Shown here: piece by piece, positions 1,646 to 20,701 of the stretch
Layout of the letters: each line of letters begins with the position of its first letter
Position numbering within the stretch: position 1 is the stretch's first letter
NCBI GenBank assembly: GCA_025655595.1
Contig: JAHXIO010000005.1
Location: 558,001-622,000, forward strand
Origin: Candidatus Thiodiazotropha sp. (ex Monitilora ramsayi)
GTDB taxonomy: Bacteria > Pseudomonadota > Gammaproteobacteria > Chromatiales > Chromatiaceae
Reading direction: 5' to 3'
Length of the DNA stretch: 64,000 bases
Made by a program: the position numbers and the translations under genes
Notes under the pieces: model-generated
The model's input: only the letters and a program-made list of their open reading frames with translations
Database searches by the model: none
What the model was told of the DNA's origin: nothing

Positions 1646-2914
1646 ATGGCTATTCCGTATATACATGCCAACACCTACCTTGAATATCTGTTGAAGGAGC
1701 GCAGCCAGGAGGAGCTCGGCGAGGCAATGCGACCCAAGCCGGAGGTCGATGCCGCACCGCGTATTCCCCGCGACCATCGCATCAGCCAGAAGATGGTGGA
1801 GAAGCGCTGGTCGCTCTTTACGGATGTCCCGCAGGCCCGTGAGCAGTTGCTCGATCCGGTGACGGAGGCGGGGATGGAGGCCTATCAACGGAATATCGAG
1901 AATTTTATCGGCACGGTAAAAGTGCCGGTGGGTATTGCCGGTCCCCTTCGTGTAAACGGCCTCTTCGCCCAGGGCGATTACTATGTGCCGCTGGCCACCA
2001 CCGAGGCGGCCCTGGTCGCCTCCTATAACCGTGGCGCGCAGATGATCACCCGCGCCGGTGGCTGTACCACCCTGGTATTGAGTGAAGCGGTGATGCGCGC
2101 TCCCGGGTTCGCGTTCGACAATTTGCAGGATGCGGGCGCCTTTGTCGCATGGGTCGTGCCTCAACTGGAGTCGTTCAAGGCGGAAGCGGCCAAAACCACC
2201 CGGCACGGCGAGTTGATCGATATGCAAGTCACCGTGGAGGGAAACCATGTCTATCTTCGCTTCGATTTCCATACCGGCGATGCCGCCGGGCAGAATATGG
2301 TGACCATCGCCACGCAGGCGATCTGCGACTACATTCTGGCCAACTCCCCGGTGAAGCCAAAATATTTCTTCCTCGAAGCGAATATGTCGGGTGACAAGAA
2401 GGCGAGCGCCCAGTCTTTTCTCTCAGTGCGCGGTAAGAAGGTAACCGCCGAGGTCACCATGCCCAAGGCGCTAGTCAAGGGCCTGTTGCACACCACGCCG
2501 GAACGGATGGTGGACTACTGGCGCATGTCCGCCATGGGGGGTGTGTTGAGCGGTACTATTGGTGTGCAGGGTCACTATGCCAACGGGCTCGCCGCACTCT
2601 ATATCGCCTGCGGTCAGGATGCAGCCTGCGTTTCGGAGTCGGCGGTCGGCGTCACCCGTTTTGAGTTGACTGAAGGGAGTGATCTCTATGCCTGCGTGAC
2701 CCTACCGAATCTGATTGTCGGGACGGTCGGCGGTGGTACGGGACTGCCCAGTCAGAAGGCCTGTCTCGACCTACTGGGACTCGCAGGATCCGATAACTCG
2801 CGTGCCTTTGCCGAAGTTGCGACTGGGGTGACCCTGGCCGGTGAGTTATCGATAATCGGCGCCCTCTGCGCAGGCCATTTTGCACGGGCTCATCAGCAAC
2901 TGGCGCGGGGTTGA
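1646..2914 (+). CDS. HMG-CoA reductase (hydroxymethylglutaryl-CoA reductase)
   Basis: Reduces HMG-CoA to mevalonate with NAD(P)H. At 422 residues it is close to the catalytic core of the family. All four catalytic positions can be placed: Glu120 in TTEAALVAS, Lys251 in SGDKK, Asp325 in GQDAA, and His416 near the C-terminus (AHQQ). Also visible are ENFIGTVKVPVGIAGPL, DAAGQNM and GTVGGGTGLPSQ, the last being typical of the biosynthetic class. The start was set at ATG 1646 because AAGGAG lies at 1635-1640; an upstream GTG at 1628 is in frame but unsupported. It heads a seven-gene operon; its stop at 2912-2914 lies 2 bases before the next ATG. Most gammaproteobacteria make isoprenoids by the MEP route, and no other mevalonate-pathway enzyme is in the window, which is odd. 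Confidence 0.93.
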   Translation: MAIPYIHANTYLEYLLKERSQEELGEAMRPKPEVDAAPRIPRDHRISQKMVEKRWSLFTDVPQAREQLLDPVTEAGMEAYQRNIENFIGTVKVPVGIAGPLRVNGLFAQGDYYVPLATTEAALVASYNRGAQMITRAGGCTTLVLSEAVMRAPGFAFDNLQDAGAFVAWVVPQLESFKAEAAKTTRHGELIDMQVTVEGNHVYLRFDFHTGDAAGQNMVTIATQAICDYILANSPVKPKYFFLEANMSGDKKASAQSFLSVRGKKVTAEVTMPKALVKGLLHTTPERMVDYWRMSAMGGVLSGTIGVQGHYANGLAALYIACGQDAACVSESAVGVTRFELTEGSDLYACVTLPNLIVGTVGGGTGLPSQKACLDLLGLAGSDNSRAFAEVATGVTLAGELSIIGALCAGHFARAHQQLARG

Positions 2915-2916
2915 GC

Positions 2917-3849
2917 ATGCAGGTGATTCGGTCGAACCGCTGGTGGATCTACCAGCGTGAGCGCTTCCCGTTGCTCGGTCATGCACCGTTGGTTGCGGCG
3001 TTCAGTTTTTCCGCCGTGGCCTATGCCTCACTGTTGCGTGGAGAGGCCGTACTACCTCACTTCTCCACCTGGCTGGTCGCCTTTCTGACGTCATTGGCCT
3101 TTTTTCTGCAGCTGCGCATTGCTGACGAGTTCAAGGATTTCGATGAGGACAGTCGATACCGCCCCTATCGACCGGTTCCCCGTGGCCTGATTAAGCTGCG
3201 CGAGCTCGGGGTCCTCGGTGCAGCCCTGGCGCTGTTGCAACTGGTGCTCGCACTCTGGCTCTTCCCGCCTTTGGTGATTGTGCTGGCTGCCACCTGGATC
3301 TATCTGGCCCTGATGAGCCACGAGTTCTTTCTGCGGGAGTGGCTGAAGGCGCGACCCGTTACCTATCTCTGGACTCATATGCTGATCATGCCGCTGATTG
3401 ATCTCTATGCTACCGCGTGTGACTGGATGGTGGCGGCCGGCACCTGGTCTCATGCGGCGGTTCCTGACGGGCTCTTCTGGTTTCTGATCGTGAGTTTTTT
3501 CAACGGTATTGTGATCGAGATCGGACGCAAGATTCGCACACCGGAAGATGAGGAGGAGGGGGTGGAGACCTATTCTGTCCTTTGGGGACGCAAGCGGGCT
3601 GTGCTGGTCTGGCTCGGTGCATTGCTGATCACCGCCATGAGTGCAACCTTTGCCGCCTGGCAGATCGATTTTATGGTGCCGGTGTTATTCGTGTTGCTAT
3701 TGCTGCTCATCGCTGCGGGAGTTGCCGGCTGGCATTTTCTCTGCCATCTCATACCCGGAGCAGGAAAGCGATTCGAGCTGATCGCCGGTGTCTGGACACT
3801 GAGCATGTATCTCTCGCTGGGTGCCGGTCCACTACTCTGGAAGGTATAG
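2917..3849 (+). CDS. UbiA-family prenyltransferase
   Basis: Integral membrane prenyltransferase of 310 residues with about eight hydrophobic segments. The first aspartate-rich motif is DEFKDFDED (residues 70-78, key D70, D74, D78), followed by RYRPYRPVPRGLI, as in UbiA enzymes that move a polyprenyl group onto an acceptor. The second motif region, EIGRKIRTPEDEEEGVETYS (about 195-215), is acidic but not the textbook DxxxD, so the substrate could be unusual. ATG 2917 was chosen; a TTG at 2911 overlaps the previous stop. The next gene begins 5 bases after this stop. The family includes quinone, haem O and archaeal ether-lipid enzymes; the context does not decide between them, and no 4-hydroxybenzoate partner is present. 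Confidence 0.88.
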   Translation: MQVIRSNRWWIYQRERFPLLGHAPLVAAFSFSAVAYASLLRGEAVLPHFSTWLVAFLTSLAFFLQLRIADEFKDFDEDSRYRPYRPVPRGLIKLRELGVLGAALALLQLVLALWLFPPLVIVLAATWIYLALMSHEFFLREWLKARPVTYLWTHMLIMPLIDLYATACDWMVAAGTWSHAAVPDGLFWFLIVSFFNGIVIEIGRKIRTPEDEEEGVETYSVLWGRKRAVLVWLGALLITAMSATFAAWQIDFMVPVLFVLLLLLIAAGVAGWHFLCHLIPGAGKRFELIAGVWTLSMYLSLGAGPLLWKV

Positions 3850-3854
3850 GAATT

Positions 3855-6521
3855 ATGCAGTATATCCTCAATCGGGCTGACAAGATCGACCTTTCCCGGT
3901 TTGGCGGCAAGGCGGCTGCCTTGGGACATCTGGCTGCCGCAAAGCTGCCGATTCCCGATTGGCTGGTTATCGAACCCGAGGCCTTCTATCAAAGTCTGGG
4001 TCCTCAGCTTTTTAATGAGCTACAAGAAAAAAAAGATGCAGCGGACATTCAGTCATTGCTGGCTGAAATTAAACCCCATGCCGAATTACTTGCTGAACTG
4101 GAGGAGAGGTTGGCGAAGCTGTCGCCCAATGGAGAGCGGGTTGCGGTACGCTCTTCGGCAGTGGATGAGGACGGTGCCGATCACTCCTTTGCCGGTCAGT
4201 TGGAGAGCTATCTCTATGTGCCGCTGGAACAGGTTGCGGAGCGGGTTGTCGACGTCTGGCGCTCAGGATTCAGCGAACGTGTGCTGACCTACCGGATCGA
4301 GGCGGGGTTGCCTGCACTGCCACCGGCATCCGCCGTACTGGTTCAACGCATGGTAGCCAGCGATCATGCGGGTGTGGCCTTCTCCGCCGATCCGGTGAGC
4401 GGTCGTCGCAATATCGCGGTGGTTTCCGCCGTACACGGTCTGGGTACGGCTCTCGTCTCCGGAGATGCGGATGCAGATACCTGGCGAGTGGATGGATTGG
4501 AGACGATCATCGACCGCCAGGTTGCAGAGAAGCGCATCGCGCATCGGTTTGATCCCGATGCACCGGACAACCTGCGTGAGGAGCCGTTACAGGGAGAAAT
4601 GATAGGGCAGCCGGTGTTGACTGATGATGATGTCAAGCGTGTAGCCAAACTGGCGCGAGAGGTCAGCCGGCATTTCGGTAAGCCACAGGACATCGAATGG
4701 GCGTTCGATAAGGGCGAGCTTTATCTATTGCAGTCACGTCCAATTACTGCACTGAACGCATTGCCGGATCCGACGGGGGAACGAAATCTCTGGGATAACA
4801 GCAATATCGCAGAGAGCTATGGCGGTATCACAACGCCGTTGACCTTCAGTTTCGCCCGTCGGGCCTATGAATCGGTCTACCGTGAATTCTGCCGTGTCCT
4901 GCGCGTCCCTGCTTCGGTGATTCAGGATAACGACACCACCTTTAAACGCATGCTTGGTCTGATACGGGGGCGGGTCTACTACAATCTGCTCTCCTGGTAT
5001 CGGGTACTGGCCCTGCTGCCTGGCTTTACCGTGAACCGGCGTTTCATGGAGCAGATGATGGGGGTGAAGGAGGGGTTGCCCGAAGAGATAGCAAAGGAAC
5101 TCTCCGGCAGCACGGCAGACCGGTTTCGCGATGCGCTGCGCCTCGGTGCGAGTGTGGGTGGGCTATTGCTCAACCACTTTCTGTTGCCCTATAAGAACCG
5201 GCGTTTCTACAAGCGGCTCGAAGCGGCCCTCGAGAGCCAGACCAACCTTACCGGCTTGAATGCCACTCAGCTCGCCGGTCACTACCACGATTTGGAGCGA
5301 AAGCTGTTGACCCGTTGGGACGCCCCCCTGATCAATGATTTTTTCGCCATGATCTTCTACGGTGTGTTGCGCAGTCTGGGTGCGAAATGGTGTCACGACA
5401 GCGACGAGAGTCTGCAGAACGATCTGCTGGCGGGCGAGGGGGGCATGATCAGTGCCGAGCCCGCTCAGCGGGTACGACAGATGGCGGAGATCATCCGCGA
5501 GGATCAGACCTTCAGCGAACTGTTGACCACGGGCGATCTGACAGAGATCGAGGTTGCTCTGCCAGAACAGACGGCATTTCATCAAGCCTATCTTGCCTAT
5601 CTCGACAAGTTCGGTGACCGCTGTCTCGATGAGCTCAAACTGGAGAGCGCGACACTGCACGACGACCCCCTGCTGCTTTTGCGATCAATCGGGCAGTTTG
5701 CCCTGCGTTTGCGTGAGCAGAAAGCCACGGAGCCGGGTTCGATCGAGCGGGAGATCCGTCAGAAGGCGGAAACTAGGGTGACGACTGCACTTGAGAACCA
5801 TGCCGTCAGGGGTGCGGTATACCGATGGGTACTCAAACATACCCGAGCCCGGGTGCGGGATCGTGAGAATCTACGTTTCGAGCGTACCCGTTTGTTCGGG
5901 CGGGTGCGCCGTGTCTTTGTCGAGCTGGGCAAACGACTCTATGCCGAGGGTTTGCTGGATCATCCTCGGGATGTTTTCCACCTGGAGGTAAATGAGGTAG
6001 TGGGGTTTGTTGAAGGCACAACCGTAACCACCGACCTGAAGGGGTTGGTCGAACTGCGCCGGGAGGAGTTTGCAGGGTATGAATCCATGGCGCCGCCGGT
6101 GGACCGTTTCGAGACGCTGGGTATGGTGCACCAGGGGAATGATTTCACGGCGCCTGAACAGGCAGAGGAGCTGACCGATGGAGATCTCAAGGGGATCGGC
6201 TGCTGTCCCGGCGTGGTGCGCGGCCCGGTACGGGTGATCAGCGATCCCCGCAATGCCGTGCTCAATGCGGGCGAGATACTGGTGGCGGAACGCACCGATC
6301 CGGGCTGGATCATGCTCTTTCCAGCGGCATCCGGCATCCTGGTGGAGAGGGGCAGTCTGCTCTCCCATTCGGCCATAGTGGCACGGGAGATGGGGATACC
6401 GGCCGTTGTGTCGGTACCGGGTATAACACGCACGCTGTCCGATGGCGAGTGGGTGGAGTTTGACGGCAGCAGCGGTGTGATTCGCCGCGTCGAACCTGAC
6501 AGAGAGACTGTCGATGCGTAG
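3855..6521 (+). CDS. PEP-synthase / rifampicin-phosphotransferase-like protein
   Basis: Large soluble enzyme of 888 residues with the architecture of the PEP-synthase/PPDK/rifampicin phosphotransferase superfamily. An N-terminal ATP-grasp-like PEP/pyruvate-binding domain (about 1-310) includes RVAVRSSAVDEDG and ends with DIEWAF and LLQSRPITAL. A long middle domain (about 315-770) is without clear relatives. The C-terminal swivelling phosphohistidine domain has RGSLLSHSAIVAREMG with the carrier His838. True PEP synthase also has a PEP/pyruvate TIM barrel, which I do not see, so phosphate transfer from ATP via His838 to another acceptor, as in RPH, is more likely. ATG 3855 follows ATAGGAA; the upstream in-frame extension runs inside the UbiA gene and was discarded. 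It overlaps the next gene by 8 bases. The acceptor is unknown; a lipid alcohol would suit the operon (inference). Confidence 0.85.
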   Translation: MQYILNRADKIDLSRFGGKAAALGHLAAAKLPIPDWLVIEPEAFYQSLGPQLFNELQEKKDAADIQSLLAEIKPHAELLAELEERLAKLSPNGERVAVRSSAVDEDGADHSFAGQLESYLYVPLEQVAERVVDVWRSGFSERVLTYRIEAGLPALPPASAVLVQRMVASDHAGVAFSADPVSGRRNIAVVSAVHGLGTALVSGDADADTWRVDGLETIIDRQVAEKRIAHRFDPDAPDNLREEPLQGEMIGQPVLTDDDVKRVAKLAREVSRHFGKPQDIEWAFDKGELYLLQSRPITALNALPDPTGERNLWDNSNIAESYGGITTPLTFSFARRAYESVYREFCRVLRVPASVIQDNDTTFKRMLGLIRGRVYYNLLSWYRVLALLPGFTVNRRFMEQMMGVKEGLPEEIAKELSGSTADRFRDALRLGASVGGLLLNHFLLPYKNRRFYKRLEAALESQTNLTGLNATQLAGHYHDLERKLLTRWDAPLINDFFAMIFYGVLRSLGAKWCHDSDESLQNDLLAGEGGMISAEPAQRVRQMAEIIREDQTFSELLTTGDLTEIEVALPEQTAFHQAYLAYLDKFGDRCLDELKLESATLHDDPLLLLRSIGQFALRLREQKATEPGSIEREIRQKAETRVTTALENHAVRGAVYRWVLKHTRARVRDRENLRFERTRLFGRVRRVFVELGKRLYAEGLLDHPRDVFHLEVNEVVGFVEGTTVTTDLKGLVELRREEFAGYESMAPPVDRFETLGMVHQGNDFTAPEQAEELTDGDLKGIGCCPGVVRGPVRVISDPRNAVLNAGEILVAERTDPGWIMLFPAASGILVERGSLLSHSAIVAREMGIPAVVSVPGITRTLSDGEWVEFDGSSGVIRRVEPDRETVDA

Positions 6522-7611
6522 TGAGGTTGCCGCTAGGGCTGACTTTTCCCAGATTCGCTATGCCCAGTGTTGGGAGGATGCGGATATCCTGGTTGAGGCA
6601 CTGCGGGTTGATCGGGGCGGTGTTTGTCTCTCCATTTCATCGGCCGGTGATAACGCGCTGGCGTTGTTGGGTGCCGGCGCCAAACATGTGATAGCCCTCG
6701 ATCTTAACCCGGCGCAGCTCGCCTGCCTTGCATTGCGGGTGGCTGCCTACCAGGAGCTCTCTCATCCGGAGCTGTTGGCACTGATCGGTTCGCGACCGAG
6801 TAAGGATCGAGCGACGCTCTATCGACGCTGTCGACCGCTGCTCGATGCCGATAATCGCGCCTTCTGGGATGCGCATGGCAATGAGATCGATGCCGGGATC
6901 GGCGGCGCCGGCAAGTTCGAACGCTACTTTCGCCTCTTTTGCGACAGGGTTCTGCCACTGGTGCATCGCAGGCAGACTGTTGAGCGGCTACTGCAGGGTG
7001 GCGACCAGGCGACTCGGGAGCGCTTCTATGAGAGCGATTGGAACACTTGGCGTTGGCGTTTGCTGTTTAAGCTCTTTTTCTCCCGTTTCGTGATGGGACG
7101 TATGGGACGGGATCCCAGCTTCTTCCGTTACGTGGAAGGCAGTGTGGCGGCGCATATTCTGAAGCACACCCGCTATGCGCTGACCACTCTCGATCCCGCA
7201 GACAATCCTTATCTGCATTGGATACTGACGGGTACCCACGGCGAGGCACTGCCTTATGCGCTGCGTGAAACGCAGTTCGAAGCGATTCGTGACCGGATTG
7301 ATCAGGTGGAGTGGCATCTGCTCTCAATCGAGGCCTATCTGGCACAGTATCCCGAGATGAGATTCGATGCCTTCAATCTCAGCGATATCTTCGAATATAT
7401 GTCGGAGGAAAACTATGAAGCCCTACTGACGAGGTTGGTGGATGCAGCCAATCCCGGTGCACGTCTCGCATACTGGAATATGTTGGCGCCGAGAAAATGC
7501 CCGCCTGGCCTCGCCGACCGGATACACTCGCTCGATGAACTGGGACGGGATCTCTATGCCCGGGACAAGGCCTTTTTCTACCGGGATTTTATCGTGGAGG
7601 AGCGTCGGTGA
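6514..7611 (+). CDS. DUF3419/BtaA-like 3-amino-3-carboxypropyl transferase
   Basis: Protein of 365 residues matching the BtaA/DUF3419 family, which moves the 3-amino-3-carboxypropyl group of S-adenosylmethionine to diacylglycerol, the first step of betaine-lipid synthesis. The family hallmark YAQCWEDADIL is at about residues 14-24. An SAM-binding Rossmann motif follows (SISSAGDNAL, then ALDLNPAQLACLALRV). Later blocks FNLSDIFEYM and ARLAYWNML also fit the family. ATG 6514 overlaps the preceding stop by 8 bases; its own stop overlaps the next GTG by four. The methylating partner BtaB is absent from the operon, so either methylation is encoded elsewhere or the acceptor and product differ from DGTS. 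Confidence 0.85.
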   Translation: MRSEVAARADFSQIRYAQCWEDADILVEALRVDRGGVCLSISSAGDNALALLGAGAKHVIALDLNPAQLACLALRVAAYQELSHPELLALIGSRPSKDRATLYRRCRPLLDADNRAFWDAHGNEIDAGIGGAGKFERYFRLFCDRVLPLVHRRQTVERLLQGGDQATRERFYESDWNTWRWRLLFKLFFSRFVMGRMGRDPSFFRYVEGSVAAHILKHTRYALTTLDPADNPYLHWILTGTHGEALPYALRETQFEAIRDRIDQVEWHLLSIEAYLAQYPEMRFDAFNLSDIFEYMSEENYEALLTRLVDAANPGARLAYWNMLAPRKCPPGLADRIHSLDELGRDLYARDKAFFYRDFIVEERR

Positions 7612-8954
7612 ATCCCTGGCTGGGGATGCTGGTGGTGATGGCCGCCCTGTCATCGGCTTTTCTCGCGCTGCGTTTGCTGGAAAAACACGCCTCTCCCCAT
7701 CCGGAGGTCCTGCGCAAGCTGATGCATGTACTCATGGGCCTGGTTACGGCAACCTTTCCCTGGCTGTTCAACGAGAGCTGGCCTGTATTGCTGTTGGCGG
7801 GCGGCAGCGTGGCGGTATTGATCCTCGTGCGTAGCGGAGTTTCGGTTGCCGGTTCGGTGAAAGGGGTGTTGCATGGTGTCGAACGTACCTCCTGGGGTGA
7901 GCTGCTTTTTCCGCTCTCCGTGGCCGCTGTCTTCTTACTGGCTGATGGTGAACCATTACTTTACAGCGTACCCATTCTGATACTCGCCCTGGCGGATGCG
8001 GTGGCTGCGCTGATTGGTGTCTATTACGGTCAGATACAGTTCACTACCCTGGAAGGCAGTAAATCGATCGAAGGTTCCTTCGCCTTCTTTATCGTCACCT
8101 TTCTCTGTGTCCATATCGCGGTACTGCTGTTTACCGACGCGGGGCGTATCGAGTCGCTGCTGATCGGCCTGCTCATGGGTATCGTGGTGATGATGTTCGA
8201 GGCGGTAGCCTGGCGCGGGTTGGACAATCTGTTTATTCCCGTGGCGAGTTTTGCCCTGCTGAAGAGTTATCTCAAGCTGGATGCCGGCGCGCTGTCTGTG
8301 AGTCTGATGGTTATTGTGCTGTTGGGTGTTTTTCTGTTGATGTGGCGTCGCCGCAGCACGCTCGACGACAGCGCTTTGATTGGTGCGGGTTTGGTCGCCT
8401 ATGGGAGTTGGGCCATTGGCGACCTCTATTGGCTACTGGTGCCGGTGTCCGTGTTCGTGATTGCGACTTGGCTCGTGTTGCGAGAGGTCGAGGCCGGGCA
8501 GCGGCAGATTCACACGGTCTATGCGTTACTGGGTATTACAGGTCCCGGTTTATTCTGGCTGACACTCAGCCGCAATGTGGAGTCGGTTGACCTCTTCTTT
8601 GCTTATGTCCTGGCCTTTGCCGCCCACCTGACAATGCTGGGTGTTTCCCGCGCCCATTCCGGATTGGCACGTCTTCCGATTTCACGCATCGTACCGGCAG
8701 TTATGCAAGGGTTTGTGGTGCTTCTCTTGCCGTTTTCTCTGATGTGGGGGATAGATCTCCGTCTGGGTGTGATTGCAACTTTTGGTGTTTTGGCGCTGTT
8801 GCTGGCTGCTCTTGCGTTTTTGAAGTTACAACCCGCGCTCGATAATTGTCCCGGCACACCTGAACGCTGGACGCGCCAGGCGCTGATTGCTGGTGGACTG
8901 TCGGTAATGGGGTGGATCTCTTTGGGCGTCATCGATATGGATGGAGTGCAGTGA
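7608..8954 (+). CDS. Dolichol/phytol kinase-like membrane protein with long C-terminal extension
   Basis: Polytopic membrane protein of 448 residues. The N-terminal half (about 1-225) carries the polyprenol-kinase pattern: RKLMHVLMG (R36, K37, H40), RTSWGELLFPLS, ALADAVAALIG and GSKSIEGS (about 150-157), as in CTP-dependent dolichol and phytol kinases. The C-terminal 200 residues add some six further hydrophobic segments not seen in ordinary phytol kinases. It starts at GTG 7608, which overlaps the previous stop (GTGA), and ends in TGATG shared with the next gene; such coupling implies co-translation. The likely activity is phosphorylation of an isoprenoid or lipid alcohol, consistent with HMGR and UbiA in the operon; the substrate is not known. 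Confidence 0.8.
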   Translation: MNPWLGMLVVMAALSSAFLALRLLEKHASPHPEVLRKLMHVLMGLVTATFPWLFNESWPVLLLAGGSVAVLILVRSGVSVAGSVKGVLHGVERTSWGELLFPLSVAAVFLLADGEPLLYSVPILILALADAVAALIGVYYGQIQFTTLEGSKSIEGSFAFFIVTFLCVHIAVLLFTDAGRIESLLIGLLMGIVVMMFEAVAWRGLDNLFIPVASFALLKSYLKLDAGALSVSLMVIVLLGVFLLMWRRRSTLDDSALIGAGLVAYGSWAIGDLYWLLVPVSVFVIATWLVLREVEAGQRQIHTVYALLGITGPGLFWLTLSRNVESVDLFFAYVLAFAAHLTMLGVSRAHSGLARLPISRIVPAVMQGFVVLLLPFSLMWGIDLRLGVIATFGVLALLLAALAFLKLQPALDNCPGTPERWTRQALIAGGLSVMGWISLGVIDMDGVQ

Positions 8955-9949
8955 TGAGGGTGGTGGATTACCCCATTGGCGAAACAACCGGATCCTATCC
9001 GGTATCCACAGCCTTAGATGCATTTGATCAAGACTTGCTTGCTCAACATGAGGTCGATGGGCATTCAATTGTCCTGGAGGGTGAAACTGTCGTCGCGCGC
9101 GCTTCACTCTGGTGGCGGGATACACCGAAATTCGAGGCTGAACAGTTGGGTATAATTGGCCATTTTGCCGCAAGGGATAAGCGTGCTGCCGAACAGTTGC
9201 AGAGCAGACTGTTTGAACGGCTGAAAGCGCAGGGTTGTTCATTGGCAGTAGGCCCGATGGATGGCAATACCTGGCGCCGCTACCGTTTTGTGTCGGATCC
9301 CGGAGATGAGCCGCCGTTTTTTCTTGAACCGGAGAACCCGGCACTCTATCCCGACAGTTTTCTATCGGCCGGCTTTACACCAATGGCCCAATACACATCG
9401 GCCCGGGTGACGGATCTTACGCTTCACGACAACCGGATACCCCGTGCGATAGCGCGCTTAAAAGGGGACGGTATCGATTGGCGCCCACTGGACATGGCGA
9501 ATTTTGAACGGGAGCTGCGCTCGATCTATCGTCTCTCTCTTCGCTGCTTTAACAATAACTTTCTCTATACACCGATTGAGGAAGCTTCGTTTCTGGCGCA
9601 ATACCAGGCCGTTGCGCCCTATGTGCGGCCGGAACTGACGCTTATGGCGGAGAGGGATGGAGATCTGTTGGGTTATCTGTTCGGTATTCCCGATCTCAAT
9701 CAGGGCCGGCGGGGCGAACCGGTCGATACATTCATCGTTAAGACGGTGGCCGCACTTCCTGAACGTCGAAACGCCGGTCTTGGCAGTGTATTGGTGGCGG
9801 AGAGTCATCGTATCGCCCATGAACAGGGATATCGATACGCCATCCATGCCCTGATGCACGAGAGCAATCAATCCCGAAATATATCGGCACATTACGCCCA
9901 CACCATGCGGCGCTATACCCTCTACCAAAAACGCCTGGACCGCAGTTAA
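8954..9949 (+). CDS. GNAT-family N-acyltransferase
   Basis: Protein of 331 residues. The C-terminal part (about 165-315) has the GNAT acyl-CoA-binding pattern: the beta4 stretch TFIVKTVAAL followed by PERRNAGLGSVL, equivalent to Q/RxxGxG/A. The N-terminal part also reads as a divergent GNAT-like half (GIIGHFAARDKRAAEQL and AVGPMDGNTWRRYRF), so it may be a tandem-GNAT protein. The start ATG 8954 is inside the TGATG overlap with the preceding gene, and the stop overlaps the next start (TAATG). In this operon it could acylate the amino group left by the BtaA-like enzyme; this is inference. The substrate and acyl donor cannot be read from sequence. Confidence 0.75.
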   Translation: MRVVDYPIGETTGSYPVSTALDAFDQDLLAQHEVDGHSIVLEGETVVARASLWWRDTPKFEAEQLGIIGHFAARDKRAAEQLQSRLFERLKAQGCSLAVGPMDGNTWRRYRFVSDPGDEPPFFLEPENPALYPDSFLSAGFTPMAQYTSARVTDLTLHDNRIPRAIARLKGDGIDWRPLDMANFERELRSIYRLSLRCFNNNFLYTPIEEASFLAQYQAVAPYVRPELTLMAERDGDLLGYLFGIPDLNQGRRGEPVDTFIVKTVAALPERRNAGLGSVLVAESHRIAHEQGYRYAIHALMHESNQSRNISAHYAHTMRRYTLYQKRLDRS

Positions 9950-11520
9950 TGAATATCGCAAACCTGATGCAGGATCAGGCCCTCCGGCAACCGGAGGTGA
10001 TTGCTATTATTGATACGCATCGGGGGGCTGAGCGCATGCACAACTATGCAGTGCTCGCATCCGATGCTGCTCGGACCGCCGCCCTACTGCGGGAGAAGGG
10101 TATCGGTAAGGGGGATTGCGTGCTGGTGTTTCAGCCCATGTCCTATGAGCTCTATGTTGCGCTACTGGCGATATTTCGGTTAGGAGCCGTTGCGATGTTT
10201 CTCGACCCCTCCGCGGGTCGCGTCCATATCAACCAGTGTTGTGACATCGGTGCGCCCAAAGCACTGATTGCCAGCACCCGGGCTCATCTATTGCGGTTTG
10301 TTTCCGCAAGTCTGCGACGCATCCCTGTGAAATTTGTCATTGGTCGCTTTGCGCCGGGGGCGACGTCTATGCGGCAGGCAGCTGCTTTCGTGCCCTTGGA
10401 AACCATTGAGATGTGCGAGCCGGAGGATCCCGCACTCCTGACCTTCACCAGTGGCAGTACCGGACTGCCAAAGGCCGCCTTAAGATCCCACGCTTTTTTG
10501 ATGGCACAACATCGGGTGTTGGATCGGGCGTTGAGGCTGAAGATCGGGGAGGTCGATCTCACGACGCTACCGGTTTTTCTGCTCGCCAACCTGGCCTCCG
10601 GTTTGACCAGTGTCATCCCTCAGGCAGACCTTAGGTTTCCCGGACGGATCGATCCCGCGCCGGTGGTTGAACAGATTGAACGGTACGGTGTGACCCGCAG
10701 TGCGGGGTCACCTGCTTTCTATCAACGTCTTACGGAGTTCTGTGAAGCCGAAGGCAGGCACCTGGAAGGTGTAGGCCGGATCGATACCGGCGGCGCCCCG
10801 GTATTCCCCGGGTTGTTGCGCCAACTACAGTCGATTGCTCCGGAGGCTCAGGTGGTCTCGGTCTACGGATCCACCGAGGCCGAACCGATGAGCCACATCA
10901 GCTGGAGAGAGATGGACGAAAGTGATCTCGATGCGATGCGGTCCGGTAAAGGACTTCTTGCAGGTCCACCGGTTTCGGAGGTCAACCTGCGTGTACTGCG
11001 CGATCGATTCGGCGTGCCGATCGGACCCTATGCCAGTGATGAGCTCGATGCCGAGACGCTTCCAATTGGCGAGATTGGTGAGGTTGTGGTGACGGGGGGG
11101 CACGTGCTGAAAGGCTATCTGCATGGTAGGGGTGAGCTTGAGACCAAGTTCGAGGTCGATAGGGAACGCTGGCATCGTACCGGTGATGCAGGTTATATGG
11201 ATGCCGATGGCAGGCTCTGGCTCGTGGGTCGTTGCAGTGCGCGTATCGAAGATGAGAAAGGCGTTCTCTACCCGTTCAGTGTGGAATGTGCTGCTCACTT
11301 TCTCGAGGGTGTGCGGCGCAGCGCCATGGTTAGCAGCGAGGGTCGACGCATTCTTCTGCTGGAGAGTGACAAACCGTTGGATTCCGACGCCATCATAAAA
11401 AAACTGGATTGGGTACAACTTGATGAACTGCGTGAGGTAAAGCGGATACCTGTCGACAAGCGTCACAATGCCAAAGTTGACTATACGCGTGTGTATGCAT
11501 TGTTAGACAAGTCTGCATAA
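9949..11520 (+). CDS. AMP-dependent acyl ligase (acyl-CoA synthetase/OleC-like)
   Basis: ANL-superfamily adenylating enzyme of 523 residues. Visible motifs are the P-loop-like LLTFTSGSTGLPKAA (about 163-177), VYGSTEAEP (A5 motif), WHRTGDAGYMDADGRLWLVGR (A7/A8 region) and a C-terminal KRIPVDKRHNAKVDYTRV holding the catalytic lysine (A10). The STEAEP and PVDKRHNAKVDY forms resemble OleC (beta-lactone synthetase) and long-chain acyl ligases more than amino-acid-activating NRPS domains. It is the last gene of the operon and is translationally coupled through TAATG. It probably activates a fatty or hydroxy acid for transfer to the operon product; CoA ligase and OleC-type cyclisation cannot be told apart here. 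Confidence 0.83.
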   Translation: MNIANLMQDQALRQPEVIAIIDTHRGAERMHNYAVLASDAARTAALLREKGIGKGDCVLVFQPMSYELYVALLAIFRLGAVAMFLDPSAGRVHINQCCDIGAPKALIASTRAHLLRFVSASLRRIPVKFVIGRFAPGATSMRQAAAFVPLETIEMCEPEDPALLTFTSGSTGLPKAALRSHAFLMAQHRVLDRALRLKIGEVDLTTLPVFLLANLASGLTSVIPQADLRFPGRIDPAPVVEQIERYGVTRSAGSPAFYQRLTEFCEAEGRHLEGVGRIDTGGAPVFPGLLRQLQSIAPEAQVVSVYGSTEAEPMSHISWREMDESDLDAMRSGKGLLAGPPVSEVNLRVLRDRFGVPIGPYASDELDAETLPIGEIGEVVVTGGHVLKGYLHGRGELETKFEVDRERWHRTGDAGYMDADGRLWLVGRCSARIEDEKGVLYPFSVECAAHFLEGVRRSAMVSSEGRRILLLESDKPLDSDAIIKKLDWVQLDELREVKRIPVDKRHNAKVDYTRVYALLDKSA

Positions 11521-11902
11521 ACAGTTCCTTTCACGATTCCCAGCAATGAGACTTAGTCGATTATGCGGAGGTGATCAGCGGTCCGATCCCTGTTCTGCAG
11601 AGCCGGTCTCCTTGTATTGCACGGACAGTAACCTATCCTTTAGGTGAGGAATTACTTGCCCGACTCCAATATTGTACGAAAAGGCAGAGACCACTGTTTA
11701 TGCCCCACGGCATCAATGTGTGGGGAGAGCCCCTGTGAATGACCATTGGTGGATTAAGCGCTACTGATCTGCGTGATTCGGGGTCTTTCGGTATTTATTG
11801 GCGCTTACCGATTTGGAGTCGACAGTATCAATAATCTGCCGCCTCAAGGATGTGACGATAGGCAGATCGCTTTTGGCAAATTGGACAGCCGGGGTGATAG
11901 CC
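11521..11902. other. Intergenic gap after the lipid operon
   Basis: A 382-base stretch with no supported gene. It contains no clear hairpin-plus-T terminator after the acyl ligase. A weak GGGGTG (11891-11896) precedes the ATG of the caspase-like gene. The in-frame extension of that gene into this gap lacks a signal peptide or ribosome site and was not used. Confidence 0.5.
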
Positions 11903-13717
11903 ATGAAACGGAGAACATTTCTTTCCGCAAGCGGTGCGACTCTAGCATCGATTCTGCTCCCAAAACTGAGTCTGGCTGAACCTGCCAACAGGGCTGCTAT
12001 CGTTATCGGTGTGGACAGATCCGGTTCTCTGCCTGTTCTGCGCGCTGCTGCCTTGGGTGCTTCGGCGTTTGCGGATTGGTTGGATAATGAGGGGTTCGAT
12101 GTTGAACGGTTTATCGATGGTACCAACGCCAAGGTAAAGGTCGATCCCATCTTTGAAGCGGTCAACAGGATTGTCACCAGAGGCATCTATGAGCAACTGG
12201 TGATCTATTTTTCCGGACACGGTTTTCTCAACAGTTATCGTGAACTGTGGATGCTCTCGGATGCACCGGATAACCCGAATCAGGCGGTAAGCCTGCTCGA
12301 ATGCGAGCGTCTCTGTAAACGTACCGGCATACCCAACGTAGTATTCATCTCCGATGCCTGCCGATCCACGGCGACAAGCCTTGCGGCGGACTCGGTCCGT
12401 GGCAGCGTTATATTTCCCACCTCTCGGCAGGCGGGCAATGTCATGACGAAGGTGGACAAGTTTTTAGCGACCCAGGAGGGTGACCCGGCCTATGAGGTTG
12501 GTGTCGATACCGCTGCAGGGAACTACTACGGCATCTATACGGCCTCCTTTCTCGATGCATACAAGGTGCCTGAAGATGAGATGGTCTCCGTGGTGGGCGG
12601 GGTGGAGGTTATTCTCAACCGGGATCTTGAAGACTATCTCAGGCGAGATGTGAACCGGCGGGCGCAGCAGGTCTCCATTGCCCTCGAGCAGCGGCCCGAG
12701 ACTAATGTACTTTCCGACAAGTATATCGGCCGGGTCAGACGTACGGCCAACACAACCGTTGACCTGCCACCATCAAACGTCTCCATTACCGAAGTCACAG
12801 CGCTGGCCTTTGCCGAAAAAGGTTTTACCAAGTTGGCATCAGTCAAATCTTTGGATACGGCGCAAATTCAGCGATCGGACAAGGTGAAGGCGTTCGATCA
12901 AGCCAAACATAGAATCAAGATAGCGGAAAGTCAGGCACCCAAGTCCTTTGAGACGGAGACCGGTTTATTTGTCTCCGGCATAGGTGTCGCAGAGGTAATG
13001 GCGAATCCCGATTATTATCGTGCCGAAATAGCGCCGGAAAAGGGTCCCGGCACCATCAGGCTCCATCCAAGGCGGGGTGCCCCGGCCAGCGTTGCCATCA
13101 GGTTCTCCGACGGTTCAGGTACGGTCGTGGCGGCATTGGCCGGGTATATCGGTACAGTGGTGGTGGATGGCGGCAGGGTGGTCAGCGTGACCTATACCCG
13201 GTCCGGCAGTGGACATGCCGGTTCCCCCGAAGAACGTCGCTTGAAGGAGCTGCGGCGTCTGGTTGCTACCTCGGCCAGGTTCGGCACGTTTCGAATTACC
13301 GGCAGCGGACAGCAGCATCAGGAAGGGGCCGAGGAGCTGGCCGATCGGATACGCGTGATGAAAGGGGTTGATCCCACCCTGGGGGTCTACGCCGCATACG
13401 CATACGCCGACGCGGATTTGGAATATCAGATCCACTCTGTCAGGGATTTCATGCAGCACGATATCAACGGCCAGATCTTCGATGTCGCGCTGCTTGCGGA
13501 CATGCTGGCGGATCTGCCGCCGAACGATCGTCGAGGCATAGCGCCTTTCTGCCCCATGCTTTCACAGGGATGGGGACTGCTCCGGATTGCCAACGTCGAC
13601 ATCCCGCGTGAGATCGACATGGCCAGAGATTACATTGAGCCGGCGTTGTGGACGACATTCAGACGAAAAGGCATGGACCTGGTGATCGAAGCCATTGAAA
13701 GTGGACGAGTGATCTAA
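11903..13717 (+). CDS. Exported caspase-like (peptidase C14) protein
   Basis: Predicted cysteine peptidase of 604 residues. The N-terminus MKRRTFLSASGATLASILL with LSLA at 22-25 is a signal peptide, possibly Tat-type (RRTFL). The caspase p20-like domain spans about 28-230: AIVIGVDRSGS (strand 1), YFSGHG with catalytic His106, and ISDACRS with catalytic Cys153. The remaining 370 residues are unassigned; a beta-rich segment (about 370-435) precedes a helical C-terminus. ATG 11903 was chosen over an in-frame ATG 105 bases upstream because it gives the signal peptide. The next gene, an exported hydrolase, begins 22 bases after the stop, so the two probably work together. Most described bacterial caspases act in the cytoplasm, so an exported one is unusual. 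Confidence 0.85.
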   Translation: MKRRTFLSASGATLASILLPKLSLAEPANRAAIVIGVDRSGSLPVLRAAALGASAFADWLDNEGFDVERFIDGTNAKVKVDPIFEAVNRIVTRGIYEQLVIYFSGHGFLNSYRELWMLSDAPDNPNQAVSLLECERLCKRTGIPNVVFISDACRSTATSLAADSVRGSVIFPTSRQAGNVMTKVDKFLATQEGDPAYEVGVDTAAGNYYGIYTASFLDAYKVPEDEMVSVVGGVEVILNRDLEDYLRRDVNRRAQQVSIALEQRPETNVLSDKYIGRVRRTANTTVDLPPSNVSITEVTALAFAEKGFTKLASVKSLDTAQIQRSDKVKAFDQAKHRIKIAESQAPKSFETETGLFVSGIGVAEVMANPDYYRAEIAPEKGPGTIRLHPRRGAPASVAIRFSDGSGTVVAALAGYIGTVVVDGGRVVSVTYTRSGSGHAGSPEERRLKELRRLVATSARFGTFRITGSGQQHQEGAEELADRIRVMKGVDPTLGVYAAYAYADADLEYQIHSVRDFMQHDINGQIFDVALLADMLADLPPNDRRGIAPFCPMLSQGWGLLRIANVDIPREIDMARDYIEPALWTTFRRKGMDLVIEAIESGRVI

Positions 13718-13739
13718 CCGGTAAGAGAGGGACAGCAAA

Positions 13740-14693
13740 ATGATCAGCAGAAGATCGCTATTGCTAAGTAGTTTCGGTCTGGTGCTTGTAGCTTTGTCAC
13801 CGACTACGATTGCAACAACGCCGCGCAGACTTGTCTTTGTCCACGGACGAAGCCAACAAGGCAAGGACCCGGAAGTACTTAAAAAGACCTGGTTTGATGC
13901 TTTGAAAAAAGGTGCGGAGACGGCAGGCTTGGAGATACCTGCCGATCTGGAAGTTGCCTTCCCCTTTTATGGCGATGTGCTTGATGAATTTACTCAGCAG
14001 ATGAACCTGCCATTGACCACTGATATCCAGGCAAGGGGAGAAGGTGTGATCAATGAGGATTTTCTCCTGTTTCAGGCGGAGATGGCGGAGGCGCTGCGGC
14101 AACAGAGTGGTATAACCGACGAACAGATCAATCTGGAGTACGGCGACAATATAAAACAGAAAGGCCCTCTCAATTGGGAGTGGGTGCAGGCGATCCTAAG
14201 AGCCCTCGACAAATATGCCGGTGGTATCAGTCAGCTTAGCCTTGAGCTGTTTACCAGGGACGTGTTTCTCTACACGAGACGCTCACTGGTTCGGGAAACC
14301 ATTGATAAGATTGTTGCGGAAACGATGACGCAAGAGCCGACGGTCGTCGTCGGCCACTCCCTTGGATCTGTCGTTGCCTACAGTGTATTGCGTTACGATC
14401 CCCGCCCGCTCAATGTGCCGCTCTACGTTACGGTGGGATCGCCCCTCGGCATAAGGTCGATTCGAGACCAATTCAGACCGCTGAAAGGTCCGGGCGTGGG
14501 AAGCTGGTTCAATGCCTTCGATAACAGGGATGTAGTGTCGCTCTATCCGCTGGACGACAGCAATTTTCCTGTGCAACCGGACGTGGAAAACTACGATGCC
14601 GTAAGGAATCATACGAAAAACCGTCACGGCATTGTCGGGTACCTGGATGACACCACCGTAGCCGAACGAATTCTTCAACAGCTCAACAGCTGA
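13740..14693 (+). CDS. Exported alpha/beta hydrolase (lipase-like)
   Basis: Protein of 317 residues with an N-terminal hydrophobic signal (about 6-26, MISRRSLLLSSFG; possibly Tat). The strand and oxyanion motif LVFVHGRSQ (HG at 35-36) and the nucleophile elbow VVGHSLGS (Ser207) mark an alpha/beta hydrolase. The acid is likely Asp near FDNRDVVS, and the His is in NRHGIVGY. It is close behind the caspase-like gene (22-base gap, same strand), suggesting a two-gene operon. It could be a lipase, esterase or acyltransferase, and possibly a zymogen or partner of the caspase-like protein (inference). Base composition is still like the GC-richer left part of the window. Confidence 0.82.
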   Translation: MISRRSLLLSSFGLVLVALSPTTIATTPRRLVFVHGRSQQGKDPEVLKKTWFDALKKGAETAGLEIPADLEVAFPFYGDVLDEFTQQMNLPLTTDIQARGEGVINEDFLLFQAEMAEALRQQSGITDEQINLEYGDNIKQKGPLNWEWVQAILRALDKYAGGISQLSLELFTRDVFLYTRRSLVRETIDKIVAETMTQEPTVVVGHSLGSVVAYSVLRYDPRPLNVPLYVTVGSPLGIRSIRDQFRPLKGPGVGSWFNAFDNRDVVSLYPLDDSNFPVQPDVENYDAVRNHTKNRHGIVGYLDDTTVAERILQQLNS

Positions 14694-15067
14694 AATAGAT
14701 CGTTAGATGTGTAGGATTCTTATCCGACATGAAGCCACACGCCACAAATGCGTCGAGTATGAGGGTAAAGTTGACAGAGTGTTCTGATGTGGTGTGCTTA
14801 TATCTAATGGTACGCCGGGTTAAATCCCATATGTATGGGAGCGGCCGATTCAATTCTCAACTTTTTCATAATTCCGGGGTCAACTGAATAGACTGTCCTA
14901 TCCGGTGTAAGTAGACAAAAACTCGATCAAGTTCAAAGTTTCTCGTCGCACTGCCGTTAAAATCAGTATTCAAGTGTAGAAAGGTGATAATGCTAGCTGT
15001 TATGTCGGTTATTTTAGATATATCAAAGGTATAGCATTTTAATAGACACAGTTCTACGGGATCGGAC
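14694..15067. other. Start of AT-rich island, non-coding
   Basis: A 374-base gap in which base composition shifts visibly toward A/T. I see no gene, no tRNA-like end and no direct repeat that would mark an attachment site. A promoter for the next small gene would have to be here, but no clear consensus stands out. Confidence 0.4.
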
Positions 15068-15493
15068 GTGGTTATTCCAGATAGAGTAGATGCCGTGAAT
15101 CAGAATAGATTGTATAAATGGACATTTTATAGGGGTGCCAGGACAATCGATCCGAAAAATAAAATTGCGGATCTATATCTGAGCTTTTCACTTGACGATC
15201 TGATAACTTGTGAATCATCGCTGCGAATAGCGCTTGATCAAGAGCGCGAAAGGCTGGCCTGTAAAGCGCTTTATCAAATTGGAATGGACTCGTTCGATGT
15301 CGCGGGCGATCAATTACCCTGGTTGTTCGTTGAAGAGGGGAAGGATTTCTATGGTGTGGCTAGAGATAATAAGGTAATTGTATTTGGTGCAGTCGAAAAA
15401 GAGTATATATTAGATGATACTGATTCGCTAATCCTTCTAAGAAAGTACTTTGGTCTTCCTAATCCCAAAAAAAGTCTTACGTCCAGTCATTAG
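15068..15493 (+). CDS. Hypothetical protein, 141 residues
   Basis: Unrecognised soluble protein without signal peptide or membrane segment. It is acidic and mixed in composition, with phrases such as FYRGARTIDPKNKIADLYLSF and LPWLFVEEGKDFYGVARDNK that read like a compact alpha/beta domain of the kind seen in immunity-type proteins (impression only). It starts at GTG 15068; an in-frame TAG lies about 36 bases upstream and no ATG intervenes, so GTG is the only reasonable start, with a poor ribosome site. It is isolated between two long AT-rich gaps, in line with recent transfer. Confidence 0.45.
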   Translation: MVIPDRVDAVNQNRLYKWTFYRGARTIDPKNKIADLYLSFSLDDLITCESSLRIALDQERERLACKALYQIGMDSFDVAGDQLPWLFVEEGKDFYGVARDNKVIVFGAVEKEYILDDTDSLILLRKYFGLPNPKKSLTSSH

Positions 15494-16060
15494 TGAAAGA
15501 CTTTGTCATGTTATCTTCAACTGTTTATCTTAGATCAGATTAGCCCCGGTTCGAAGATTGTATTACCGTTACTGGCTATTCGTTTGCGTTATTCATCTCT
15601 ATAGTTTTTCAACCTAGTTGTTGATGTGTTGTATGAAATCGATGTGTTATGTCTCTATGTCGATGGATGCAACCGCACCTGCTGTTTCTAATCGCTAGTC
15701 GACAGAGGTAAGGCAGTTAGCAGATTGTCTCGTTATGTGACGGCTTGGTGTTTTGGTATTACTATGAGTCTGAAGTGGGGATATGTGATCTTGCTAAGCT
15801 TAACCGTGAAAAAAAACATGCTTGATGAATAACCTTCATTTGCTAATATCTATTAAGGTCGTGTCGATTAATCGATATAGCTATTGTGCGGTAAATATCT
15901 TGATATGCTTATACAAAGCAAACGAATGATCTATTTTTGTTTTAAAGGAATATTACAATAATAAAAAGGGATTCTTTATAAAAGAGTTTTTTTCGAAAAA
16001 AATGGGACATCTTTTCTCGCGTGCGTAGAATAATTTTTCGCAACTATATAACAAAGTGAT
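15494..16060. other. AT-rich gene-free gap
   Basis: 567 bases with no supported reading frame on either strand. Runs of A and T (for example around 15950-16030) precede the WbqC-family gene. Nothing else is recognised. Confidence 0.45.
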
Positions 16061-16873
16061 ATGTTGTTAAGTGATATACAGCCCCAGTACTTTCCAAGAC
16101 TTCATTTTTTCGCACGAATGCTTGCATCTGATCATTTTGTCATTAGAGATGATGTTCAATTCGTGAAGAACCATAAATTTCCAGATGGTAGTCGTGGTGT
16201 ATCACATCAAGTACATACTCCTATACTAACTCATTCTGGCACGCAGCTTTTGACGGTTTTTGTGAAAAAGGGCGGGATGCTTCCAATTAATCAGACACTG
16301 ATATCGTATGATCAGCCGTGGCCTATAAAACACCTGAATCAATTAAAACCAAACTATGCAAAATCTCCTGAATTATTGACTGTTTATGGCGAGATAGAAT
16401 CTTTATTAAAGAGAGAGTATGAAACAGTATCAGACCTTAATATTGCGACCATCTGTTGGGCACTCTGCCACTTAATGAAAATAGAGACTAATGATCCTGA
16501 ATGTCTAACACTGGAATATATCAATACCCATCTAGAAGACATTAATATTGGAAAATTGAAACGAATCACCTTGGGGTCTAGTATAAAGTATGGTGATGAC
16601 GATGAAGGTATGACTGCATCAGAAAAGATTGTTGATCTGTGTAATAGATATGGAGCGACTGGGTACCTTGCAGGTAACACAGCATTTGAGAGTTATCTGG
16701 ATCAAAGGGCATTTCATGATAGCAATATTAAGGTTCAGGTTCAGAACTGGAGTTGCCAGCCTTATAAACAGAATAAAAAGGCAAATGAAGAATTTATTCC
16801 TAACCTTTCCATCTTAGATCTAATAATGAATTGCTCATCTGAACGAGCGTTGGAAATCCTTTTGTTTGCGTAG
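16061..16873 (+). CDS. WbqC-family protein
   Basis: Protein of 270 residues with the WbqC-family opening: SDIQPQYFPRLHFFARM, then DHFVIRDDVQFVKNHK (about 24-39). Later family features are SSIKYGDDDEGMTASEKIVDLCNRYGATGYLAG and a terminal QVQNWSCQPYKQ. WbqC-like proteins sit in O-antigen and surface glycan clusters and are thought to modify sugars; the reaction is not firmly known. It starts at ATG 16061 with only a weak AAAGTGA upstream. Codon use is AT-rich like the rest of the island. It stands alone, with gaps of over 500 bases on both sides, but shares strand with the polysaccharide genes that follow. Confidence 0.8.
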   Translation: MLLSDIQPQYFPRLHFFARMLASDHFVIRDDVQFVKNHKFPDGSRGVSHQVHTPILTHSGTQLLTVFVKKGGMLPINQTLISYDQPWPIKHLNQLKPNYAKSPELLTVYGEIESLLKREYETVSDLNIATICWALCHLMKIETNDPECLTLEYINTHLEDINIGKLKRITLGSSIKYGDDDEGMTASEKIVDLCNRYGATGYLAGNTAFESYLDQRAFHDSNIKVQVQNWSCQPYKQNKKANEEFIPNLSILDLIMNCSSERALEILLFA

Positions 16874-17542
16874 AGTATGTACTGACTAAAATAATATATT
16901 CAGATAATATTGTCGTTCATGTTACAAAAAAGCATTTTTTGCTTTGATCTAAGATGTAAGAAACCTAGAAAAAGGTATTTTATAAGGATTGTTTGCTGCC
17001 CATTTTGAACATTCTCGCTCTGCATTGATTTGTGTCTCTAACCTCATTGTATTGAGTAAAGAGTTTGTACGCGTGTGTACGCGGTTGGTAGTAATCTTAC
17101 GTATTCAAGTATTGCAGATTAACTGATATGGTTGTTGTAGCTAGTTACTATAGATTTGTTGGTTAAGGTACGAGTTAGCATGGACGCGTGATTTTCATTT
17201 TTAGCTAATTTTATAAAAACAAAAAATCGATTATCTGTAGAAAACATTTACTGTGCATATACTAATATTGCTATGTGGATTTAGTAACTGATTGTTTTCA
17301 GAATTACTTTTACTCAAGTGAGATATGTGCTGTATTTACTAGGGGTCGTGTTCGCATCGGTAAAAGAACAAAATTGTGCTCAAAGAGGCCATTACTTTAT
17401 TGCGATATCGACATCTCGGCGTAATTGGTAATTGTGTTCGACTAGATTCAGATGTGATGGGTTTGTAATAGATCATTAGGTGAGGTTAAAAGAGTAGCTG
17501 TCATAATATTAGAACATACTAAATTGTATGGAGGAATTGGGG
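16874..17542. other. AT-rich gap with one weak hairpin
   Basis: 669 bases without a supported gene. A small hairpin, AAAGCA (16929-16934) with TGCTTT (16940-16945) around T5, is near the end of the WbqC-family gene but lacks a following T tract. The ribosome site GGAGGA (17530-17535) at the right end decides the start of the next gene. Confidence 0.4.
17530..17535 (+). promoter_or_regulatory. Ribosome binding site deciding the epimerase start
   Basis: GGAGGA, 7 bases before ATG 17543. It overlaps an earlier in-frame ATG (17528), which therefore cannot be the main start. Confidence 0.8.
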
Positions 17543-20683: not shown

Positions 20684-20701
20684 AAATAGATAAATAAAAA
20701 T

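Follow-up and report, generated by a model that had tools for sequence, protein, structure and literature searches.

Seven genes on the forward strand of Candidatus Thiodiazotropha sp. (ex Monitilora ramsayi), at positions 1646-11520 of the window (the whole 64,000-nucleotide stretch of DNA that was analysed), are best explained as an operon, conserved and spread horizontally, for the biosynthesis of a lipid-like compound that has not been described. Central to the pathway that we propose is the paralogue of HMG-CoA reductase (HMGR) encoded by the first gene, which, judging from its sequence, has roughly an even chance (probability about 0.5) of being a reductase that turns an acyl thioester other than HMG-CoA into an alcohol. 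The component families are all known; the pathway is the new part, as far as the open-access literature shows. The original prediction had named no described pathway with this set, and we likewise found no description of it in the open-access literature, a scope outside which most subscription papers lie.

Gene order and spread of the operon

Gene calls confirmed the predicted co-directional run of seven genes, with all six junctions tight. They encode the HMGR paralogue (P1, 1646..2914), a UbiA-family prenyltransferase (P2, 2917..3849), a PEP-synthase-like phosphotransferase of the dikinase type (P3, 3855..6521), a DUF3419 protein and putative SAM-dependent 3-amino-3-carboxypropyl transferase (P4, 6514..7611), a polytopic membrane protein whose N-terminal half is a putative lipid-alcohol kinase (P5, 7608..8954), a putative N-acyltransferase with tandem GNAT domains (P6, 8954..9949), and an adenylate-forming acyl-AMP/acyl-CoA ligase (P7, 9949..11520), all on the + strand. 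P1 and P2 are 2 bases apart with the ATG at 2917 as start and overlap with the alternative TTG at 2911, and a 5-base gap, absent from the original list of junctions, lies between P2 and P3. P3 and P4 overlap by 8 bases, and the remaining junctions are GTGA (P4/P5), TGATG (P5/P6), and TAATG (P6/P7).

We found 363 relatives of the DUF3419 gene, each carrying either of two exact peptide patterns; of these loci, the best 80 were read. All seven genes were present in 36 of the best 80, with the order seen in the host in 29 and one permuted order in 7; many of the remaining 44 were cut by contig ends. Among the best 80, the order was conserved in 26 of the 38 well-flanked loci, and split-up homologues without a conserved order, the outcome that was to count against the prediction, were not what we saw. 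The titles of the loci holding all seven genes name eight phyla, the complete set also occurs on a plasmid, and in one case P3 and P4 are fused into a single open reading frame. Cultured bacteria that carry the cluster include Methylomonas sp. SURF-1 and Microcoleus sp. FACHB-1515. Because the same order recurs in distant genomes, the arrangement is more than chance. The pairwise distances of P1 to P7 were correlated over 31 complete loci (r 0.70-0.88), and for each of the 21 pairs, none of 999 permutations reached the observed value. That the seven genes form one functional unit is thus a supported conclusion.

Within the genus, gene 5 was present in the host alone among the 22 genomes searched, and the operon is therefore patchy and probably mobile. 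A 202-bp direct repeat, 184/202 identical between its copies, flanks the operon together with the gene at 198-1295. A caspase-like gene has the right copy (11847..12048, + strand) at its 5' end, and the left copy (G000:C1:557519-557720) precedes the window by 281 bases; such a pair is indicative of an insertion or a rearrangement.

An HMGR with a changed HMG pocket

P1 matches PF00368 (HMG-CoA_red) with 401 bits and the HMGR equivalog model TIGR00533 with 339.6 bits, below the cut-off of 441.8. We aligned the operon copies with canonical HMGRs, leaving out those that cover <75% of P1; the resulting 53 copies comprise 50 distinct ones, contigs L037, L027, and L041 being the same as L004, L017, and L018, respectively. 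The catalytic residues E85, K251, D325, and H416 are retained in P1 and across the set (E in 51/51 copies with a letter there; K, D, and H in 53/53 each). An earlier idea that P1 had lost its catalytic His was rejected, as the alignment with the archaeal and human enzymes shows H416 to be that residue. The pocket residues R151, K251, and K252 are also kept.

The part of the pocket that would hold the HMG moiety is different. At the position of Ser684, all 53 copies have Glu (E244 in P1); at that of Lys735 (294, Met in P1), all 53 are apolar (M/V/I/F/A/L); and position 216 is Gln in 53/53, where the archaeal and human HMGRs, two class I yardsticks and hence few, have Ser, Lys, and Met, respectively. 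The plasmid-borne P1 agrees with this changed pocket. HMGR active sites take small polar acyl-CoA substrates. According to PMC9500038, Lys735 forms a salt bridge with the terminal HMG carboxylate. The adjoining R293, an Arg in 46/53 copies, could substitute for it.

P1 is not obligatory for the cluster, which counts against the reductase proposal. A P1 match was present in 30 of the 38 well-flanked loci, including L087 with a divergent HMGR (38% identical, different pocket), and 8/38 clusters had no orthologous HMGR. No HMGR was found anywhere in 12 of the 14 genomes whose cluster is without an orthologous P1, mostly with no evident replacement. Four Verrucomicrobia clusters (L043, L044, L070, and L077) are missing both P1 and P5, with no HMGR in any of the four genomes, and in their place encode a class III aminotransferase that includes a region resembling acyl-ACP reductases. 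This protein scored 338-343 bits against the PigE model (cut-off 850) and 60 bits against the acyl-ACP-reductase model (cut-off 450). A second PPDK-like protein is also encoded in Verrucomicrobia variants.

Family evidence for the other six enzymes

P4 matches PF11899 (DUF3419) with 229.8 bits over profile positions 4-384 of 385. Its clade scores 211-231 bits, against 321-389 for 11 BtaA-type proteins, and forms a group of its own apart from BtaA in a midpoint-rooted tree (support 0.87 for the operon clade, 0.28 for the BtaA clade). In a search for columns separating canonical BtaA from P4, only seven were conserved in both groups, and as the alignment is weak, we draw no conclusion from them. 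BtaA transfers the aminocarboxypropyl group of SAM (PMC10491745). A homoserine-type transfer of this kind by P4 is plausible.

P6 matches PF00583 (Acetyltransf_1, 38 bits), and its structure model (pLDDT 92.8) gave full-length Foldseek matches to MshD, a glucosamine NAT, and other tandem GNATs with TM scores of 0.4-0.6. Formyl_trans_N genes are present in two variant clusters, L082 and L098, in which P6 was not seen, and N-acylation by P6 is plausible and in keeping with this modelled tandem-GNAT fold and the formyltransferase in the two GNAT-less variants. The L082 contig stops right after P5, and P6 may follow beyond. Neither an MMPL exporter nor a PAP2/P450 pair qualifies as a core member, since each was present in few loci.

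At E 0.001, P5 matched nothing in Pfam or NCBIfam, and its confident structure model had no match in the PDB at the same threshold, which, against our expectation, left its fold without a name from that source. DUF92 was weakly matched by 13 of 52 family members (best E 0.0005), and the family has invariant RKxxH / DxxxAxxG / KxxEGS residues, like those of VTE5/Sec59-type kinases. The earlier label of a dolichol/phytol-kinase-like protein rests on these two observations, by which a kinase role is weakly supported. P2 has the UbiA domain (PF01040, 58.7 bits, above 34.2) and an acidic diphosphate motif, D72-E73-x-K75-D76-x3-D80, that is near-invariant among 64 orthologues. P7 matches PF00501 (175 bits) with K509 conserved, and scored 385 bits against PRK09274 (cut-off 478) and 240.1 of 900 bits against the OleC beta-lactone synthetase model.

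In a different order of events, P7 and P1 would act early to make a lipid alcohol, starting from a fatty acid or a prenoic one; phosphorylation by P5 and P3 and attachment by P2 would follow, as VTE5, VTE6, and a phytyltransferase do in phytol salvage. VTE5 is a phytol kinase and VTE6 a phytyl-phosphate kinase, according to PMC8526796. The DUF92 resemblance of P5 and the place of P7 among fatty-acyl ligases are in keeping with such a route. We consider it unlikely, however, given the existence of clusters without any HMGR and the small polar substrates of HMGR active sites.

P3 has an ATP-binding PPDK_N domain (PF01326, 216 bits), a middle domain, and a C-terminal His domain (PF00391, PEP-utilizers, 86 bits) with S838-H839 near-invariant among 70 orthologues. 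It has no C-terminal PEP/pyruvate domain: the His domain spans 805-875 of 889 residues, with no Pfam match beyond. Its matches to the RedH (339 bits, cut-off 1350) and PigC (321 bits, cut-off 1300) models, together with the PigE-like and second PPDK-like proteins of the Verrucomicrobia variants, would fit a secondary metabolite that is small and secreted, P3 acting like the ATP-dependent ligases of prodiginine synthesis. On the other hand, the match of P3 to PEP synthase models of the PRK06241 type is far stronger (best 811 bits, cut-off 883), several of the operon enzymes are integral to the membrane, and most clusters have no recognised exporter (MMPL genes in 2 of the best 80 loci), making a secreted product improbable.

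Isoprenoid supply in the host genomes

The host genome has a single PF00368 match, P1 itself, a single PF00288 GHMP-kinase match, and no match to diphosphomevalonate decarboxylase (TIGR01240), for which 15 further host genomes gave none over the cut-off. The host has the MEP enzyme Dxr, which was present in 7/7 genomes checked. HMG-CoA synthase (PF08540) was found in 0/7 genomes including the host, a weak negative since it was also missed in G099, the sole genome whose decarboxylase match exceeds the cut-off. About 3 kb from that decarboxylase gene, G099 encodes a second HMGR, which is class II-like, with the operon copy standing apart; a second HMGR fragment is present in G303.

P1 might still be a true HMGR whose mevalonate serves as a building block and not for IPP. 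The catalytic residues, R151, K252, and the neighbouring Arg 293 would allow this, and the lack of a decarboxylase match in the host accords with it, but the Glu and apolar replacements in all 53 copies, and less so the missing synthase match in the host, make it quite doubtful. The original prediction that HMGR feeds a mevalonate-derived isoprenoid into a membrane lipid whose head group is of the homoserine type and N-acylated, although HMGR and UbiA share one operon and the P1 catalytic residues are intact, is very unlikely, given the Dxr and decarboxylase results, the separate HMGR in G099, and the changed pocket.

Proposed pathway and comparison with known systems

Under the preferred reading of P1 as a reductase of another acyl thioester, P2 would use a diphosphate donor to build or extend a lipid core of prenyl type, and P4 would transfer the 3-amino-3-carboxypropyl group of SAM to a hydroxyl of this core, giving a homoserine-type ether with a free amine and carboxyl. 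P6 would acylate the amine, a formyltransferase apparently having the same role in two variants. P7 would convert a carboxyl (the newly added one is the most economical choice) to an adenylate and probably a CoA thioester, which P1 would reduce to a primary alcohol. P5, with its resemblance to CTP-type lipid-alcohol kinases, and P3, of the ATP dikinase type with His839, would phosphorylate hydroxyls. We infer both what the acceptor is and in which order these steps take place.

Taken in full, the steps could yield a ceramide-phosphate-like lipid made independently of serine palmitoyltransferase, an O-prenyl/alkyl homoserine ether (P4) that is N-acylated (P6), has its carboxyl reduced to CH2OH (P7/P1), carries a phosphate (P5/P3), and derives its amino-alcohol from SAM. 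This specific structure is a long shot; if true, many phyla would have a lipid class that is new, and an enzyme with the HMGR fold would act on an acyl thioester other than that of HMG. If the pathway is right, it is intact across eight phyla with its product nowhere reported, and the target of statins, HMGR, has taken on a new substrate. The search for the product is open to any lipidomics lab, because the operon predicts methionine-derived mass increments.

Each known system shares some features with the operon. Like the mevalonate pathway, it includes an HMGR that resembles class I and has its catalytic residues intact, but no downstream gene was detected in the host and the HMG pocket is changed. 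P4 is a DUF3419 protein like BtaA of betaine-lipid (DGTS) synthesis, yet it belongs to a separate, lower-scoring clade and is accompanied by six other genes, with no BtaB-type partner methyltransferase among P1-P7 by Pfam and NCBIfam. Phytol salvage to tocopherol (VTE5, VTE6, and VTE2) also combines a lipid-alcohol kinase, which P5 weakly resembles, with a UbiA-family transferase, whereas the other operon genes have no counterpart there. Prodiginine synthesis (PigC/RedH and PigE) shares a PPDK_N plus PEP-utilizers protein and, in the variant, a PigE-like aminotransferase/reductase, but the scores fall far under the curated cut-offs and we noticed no pyrrole genes in the clusters that we read. 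Ornithine lipids (OlsB/OlsA) have an N-acylated amino-acid head group, the same idea as proposed here, while the amino group of the operon product would derive from SAM.

Architecture of the operon

The seven genes lay where the original prediction had placed them (window 1646-11520; the window is G000:C1:558001-622000 of the 4.68-Mb, 99.98% complete host genome), and all six junctions were tight (in order, a 2-base gap, a 5-base gap, an 8-base overlap, GTGA, TGATG, and TAATG). Profile matches bore out the family names of six products, namely P1 (an HMGR paralogue), P2 (UbiA), P3 (PEP-synthase-like), P4 (DUF3419/BtaA-like), P6 (GNAT), and P7 (an AMP ligase), but gene 5, which had been called dolichol/phytol-kinase-like, had no family match of its own; DUF92 gave weak matches in 13 of 52 gene 5 relatives. 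The predicted structure of its product P5 (pLDDT, 91.7) had no PDB match at an E value of 0.001, with CdsA ranking fifth (E, 0.59). For the P6 model (pLDDT, 92.8), the top PDB matches were tandem GNATs (TM, 0.4-0.6), and for P4 no PDB relative was found. Four operon-type P4 proteins scored 211-231 bits against PF11899, compared with 321-389 for eleven other DUF3419 proteins, some of which adjoin a protein whose GCGT motif, judged by eye, looks methyltransferase-like. H839 of P3 was near-invariant (70 orthologues), and both K509 of P7 (59 orthologues) and the acidic motif of P2 (64 orthologues) were conserved.

Distribution of the gene cluster

Among 56 relatives searched, gene 5 was present only in the host and in one other member of its family, G031, being absent from all 21 other genomes of the genus; across the class, 7 of 369 genomes carried it, the host included. 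Four carriers (G031, G344, G323, and G118) had all seven genes in the host's order. The set was divided between two contig ends in G303. G099 kept the order, but there a single 1184-aa frame contains both P3 and P4, and stops interrupt gene 5.

We scanned 84,980 species genomes with a P4 alignment, which yielded 363 relatives, and retained the 80 best. The search for the same gene order in other genomes was borne out at 29 of these 80 loci, and 7 more were complete in one permuted order (P6-P7-P1-P5), giving 36 complete loci. When the count was limited to the 38 loci whose DNA extended at least 6 kb upstream and at least 7 kb downstream of the P4 start, the two orders were found in 22 and 4, and the remaining 12 lacked one or more genes (matches: P1, 30/38; gene 5, 32/38; P6 and P7, 33/38 each). 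The complete loci, assigned by title and mostly from metagenome bins whose binning was taken as given, fell into eight phyla: Pseudomonadota, Desulfobacterota, Verrucomicrobiota, Planctomycetota, Deinococcota, Gemmatimonadota, Cyanobacteriota, and Bacteroidota/Rhodothermota. A plasmid of Roseinatronobacter sp. S2 carried the seven genes in the same order, P1 spanning the start of the record. Some complete loci had insertions: an MMPL gene in L037 and, before P6 in L046, roughly 7 kb that include PAP2 and P450 genes; upstream of the L036 cluster, a single protein (L036:2892-4883) joins PAP2_3 and P450 domains, which separate genes encode in L046. Pairwise protein distances of P1-P7 at 31 complete loci were correlated (r, 0.70 to 0.88; 0 of 999 permutations reached the observed r for each of 21 protein pairs), indicating inheritance as a unit rather than function, since shared descent alone yields such values.

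In the host, the operon and the gene at 198-1295 lie between the two copies of a 202-bp direct repeat (91% identity), one at window 11847-12048 and the other shortly before the window starts, at G000:C1:557519-557720. The repeat covers the beginning (5' end) of a caspase-like gene, the left copy being a truncated gene start, which suggests an insertion or rearrangement at that gene. Window 11900-14693 encodes a protein with a Peptidase_C14 (caspase) domain and, after it, a weak alpha/beta-hydrolase match. A DNA search of 39 relatives in addition to the host found no match to the stretch at window 11800-15600. Further on, window 16001-24000 is low in GC (0.36-0.37 versus about 0.55), encodes WbqC, epimerase, glycosyltransferase, PIG-L deacetylase, and GH18 proteins, and is likely a surface-polysaccharide island.

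Mevalonate background and clusters lacking P1 or P6

Profile searches of the host genome found Dxr (531 bits), no match to the mevalonate decarboxylase model TIGR01240, one GHMP-kinase match, which we take to be IspE, and P1 as the only HMGR. G031, G344, and G323 gave the same picture; G118 had two GHMP matches, and G303 had one, together with a fragment of a second HMGR. G099 had four GHMP matches, a decarboxylase above the cut-off, and nearby a second HMGR that is class II-like by its pocket. HMG-CoA synthase (PF08540) was found in none of the seven gene 5 carriers, a weak negative because G099, despite its decarboxylase, also gave none. None of 15 further operon holders had a decarboxylase above the TIGR01240 cut-off (one weak match, 19.9 bits, in G415); 2 of 14 control genomes did.

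P1 and gene 5 were not seen in four clusters (L043, L044, L070, and L077), whose titles place them in Verrucomicrobia (Akkermansia for L044). These contain a class III aminotransferase that includes an acyl-ACP-reductase-like region, and a second PPDK-like protein (family models were applied to L043 and L070; L044 and L077 are cut at the left), and no HMGR was found in the four genomes. Such variants fit P1 as a thioester reductase, but the picture is not clean, because 12 of 14 genomes having the cluster without an orthologous P1 showed no HMGR anywhere and an evident replacement was seen in these four only. G418 has an HMGR elsewhere in its genome (26% identical), and in G423 a divergent 729-aa HMGR-like protein (L087:13569-15758; 38-43% identical to P1), its pocket sequence different again, adjoins the cluster, which lacks an orthologous P1. 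In L098 (12402-18398) and L082 (3732-9962), formyltransferase (Formyl_trans_N), divergent ligase, UbiA, and PPDK-like genes lie next to P1, P4, and gene 5; their P2, P3, and P7 are 31-39% identical, and P6 was not seen in the available DNA, the L082 contig stopping soon after gene 5.

The proposed pathway and the pocket of P1

We are most confident of a conserved pathway with a putative acp-type transferase, N-acyltransferase, and ligase, a cluster for which an open-access search found no description. We hold with middling confidence that the P1 substrate is an acyl thioester other than HMG-CoA, and only tentatively propose an acceptor, a step order, and a ceramide-like product. When 53 operon copies of P1 (50 distinct) were aligned with archaeal (6hr7) and human HMGR, the catalytic residues were retained and the pocket was altered, the canonical MGMN motif being [A/S/G]GQN. 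Against a substrate other than HMG-CoA, R151, K251, and K252 are retained, and Arg293, adjacent to the Lys735 position in 46 of 53 copies, could substitute for that lysine. In plant HMGR, according to PMC9500038 and PMC3875450, the Lys735 equivalent salt-bridges the terminal HMG carboxylate and Ser684 is a polar contact. In P1, the Ser684 position (E244) was Glu in all 53 copies and the Lys735 position (M294) was Met in 39, Val in 9, Ile in 2, and Phe, Ala, and Leu in 1 each, the plasmid copy being concordant with Glu and Val.
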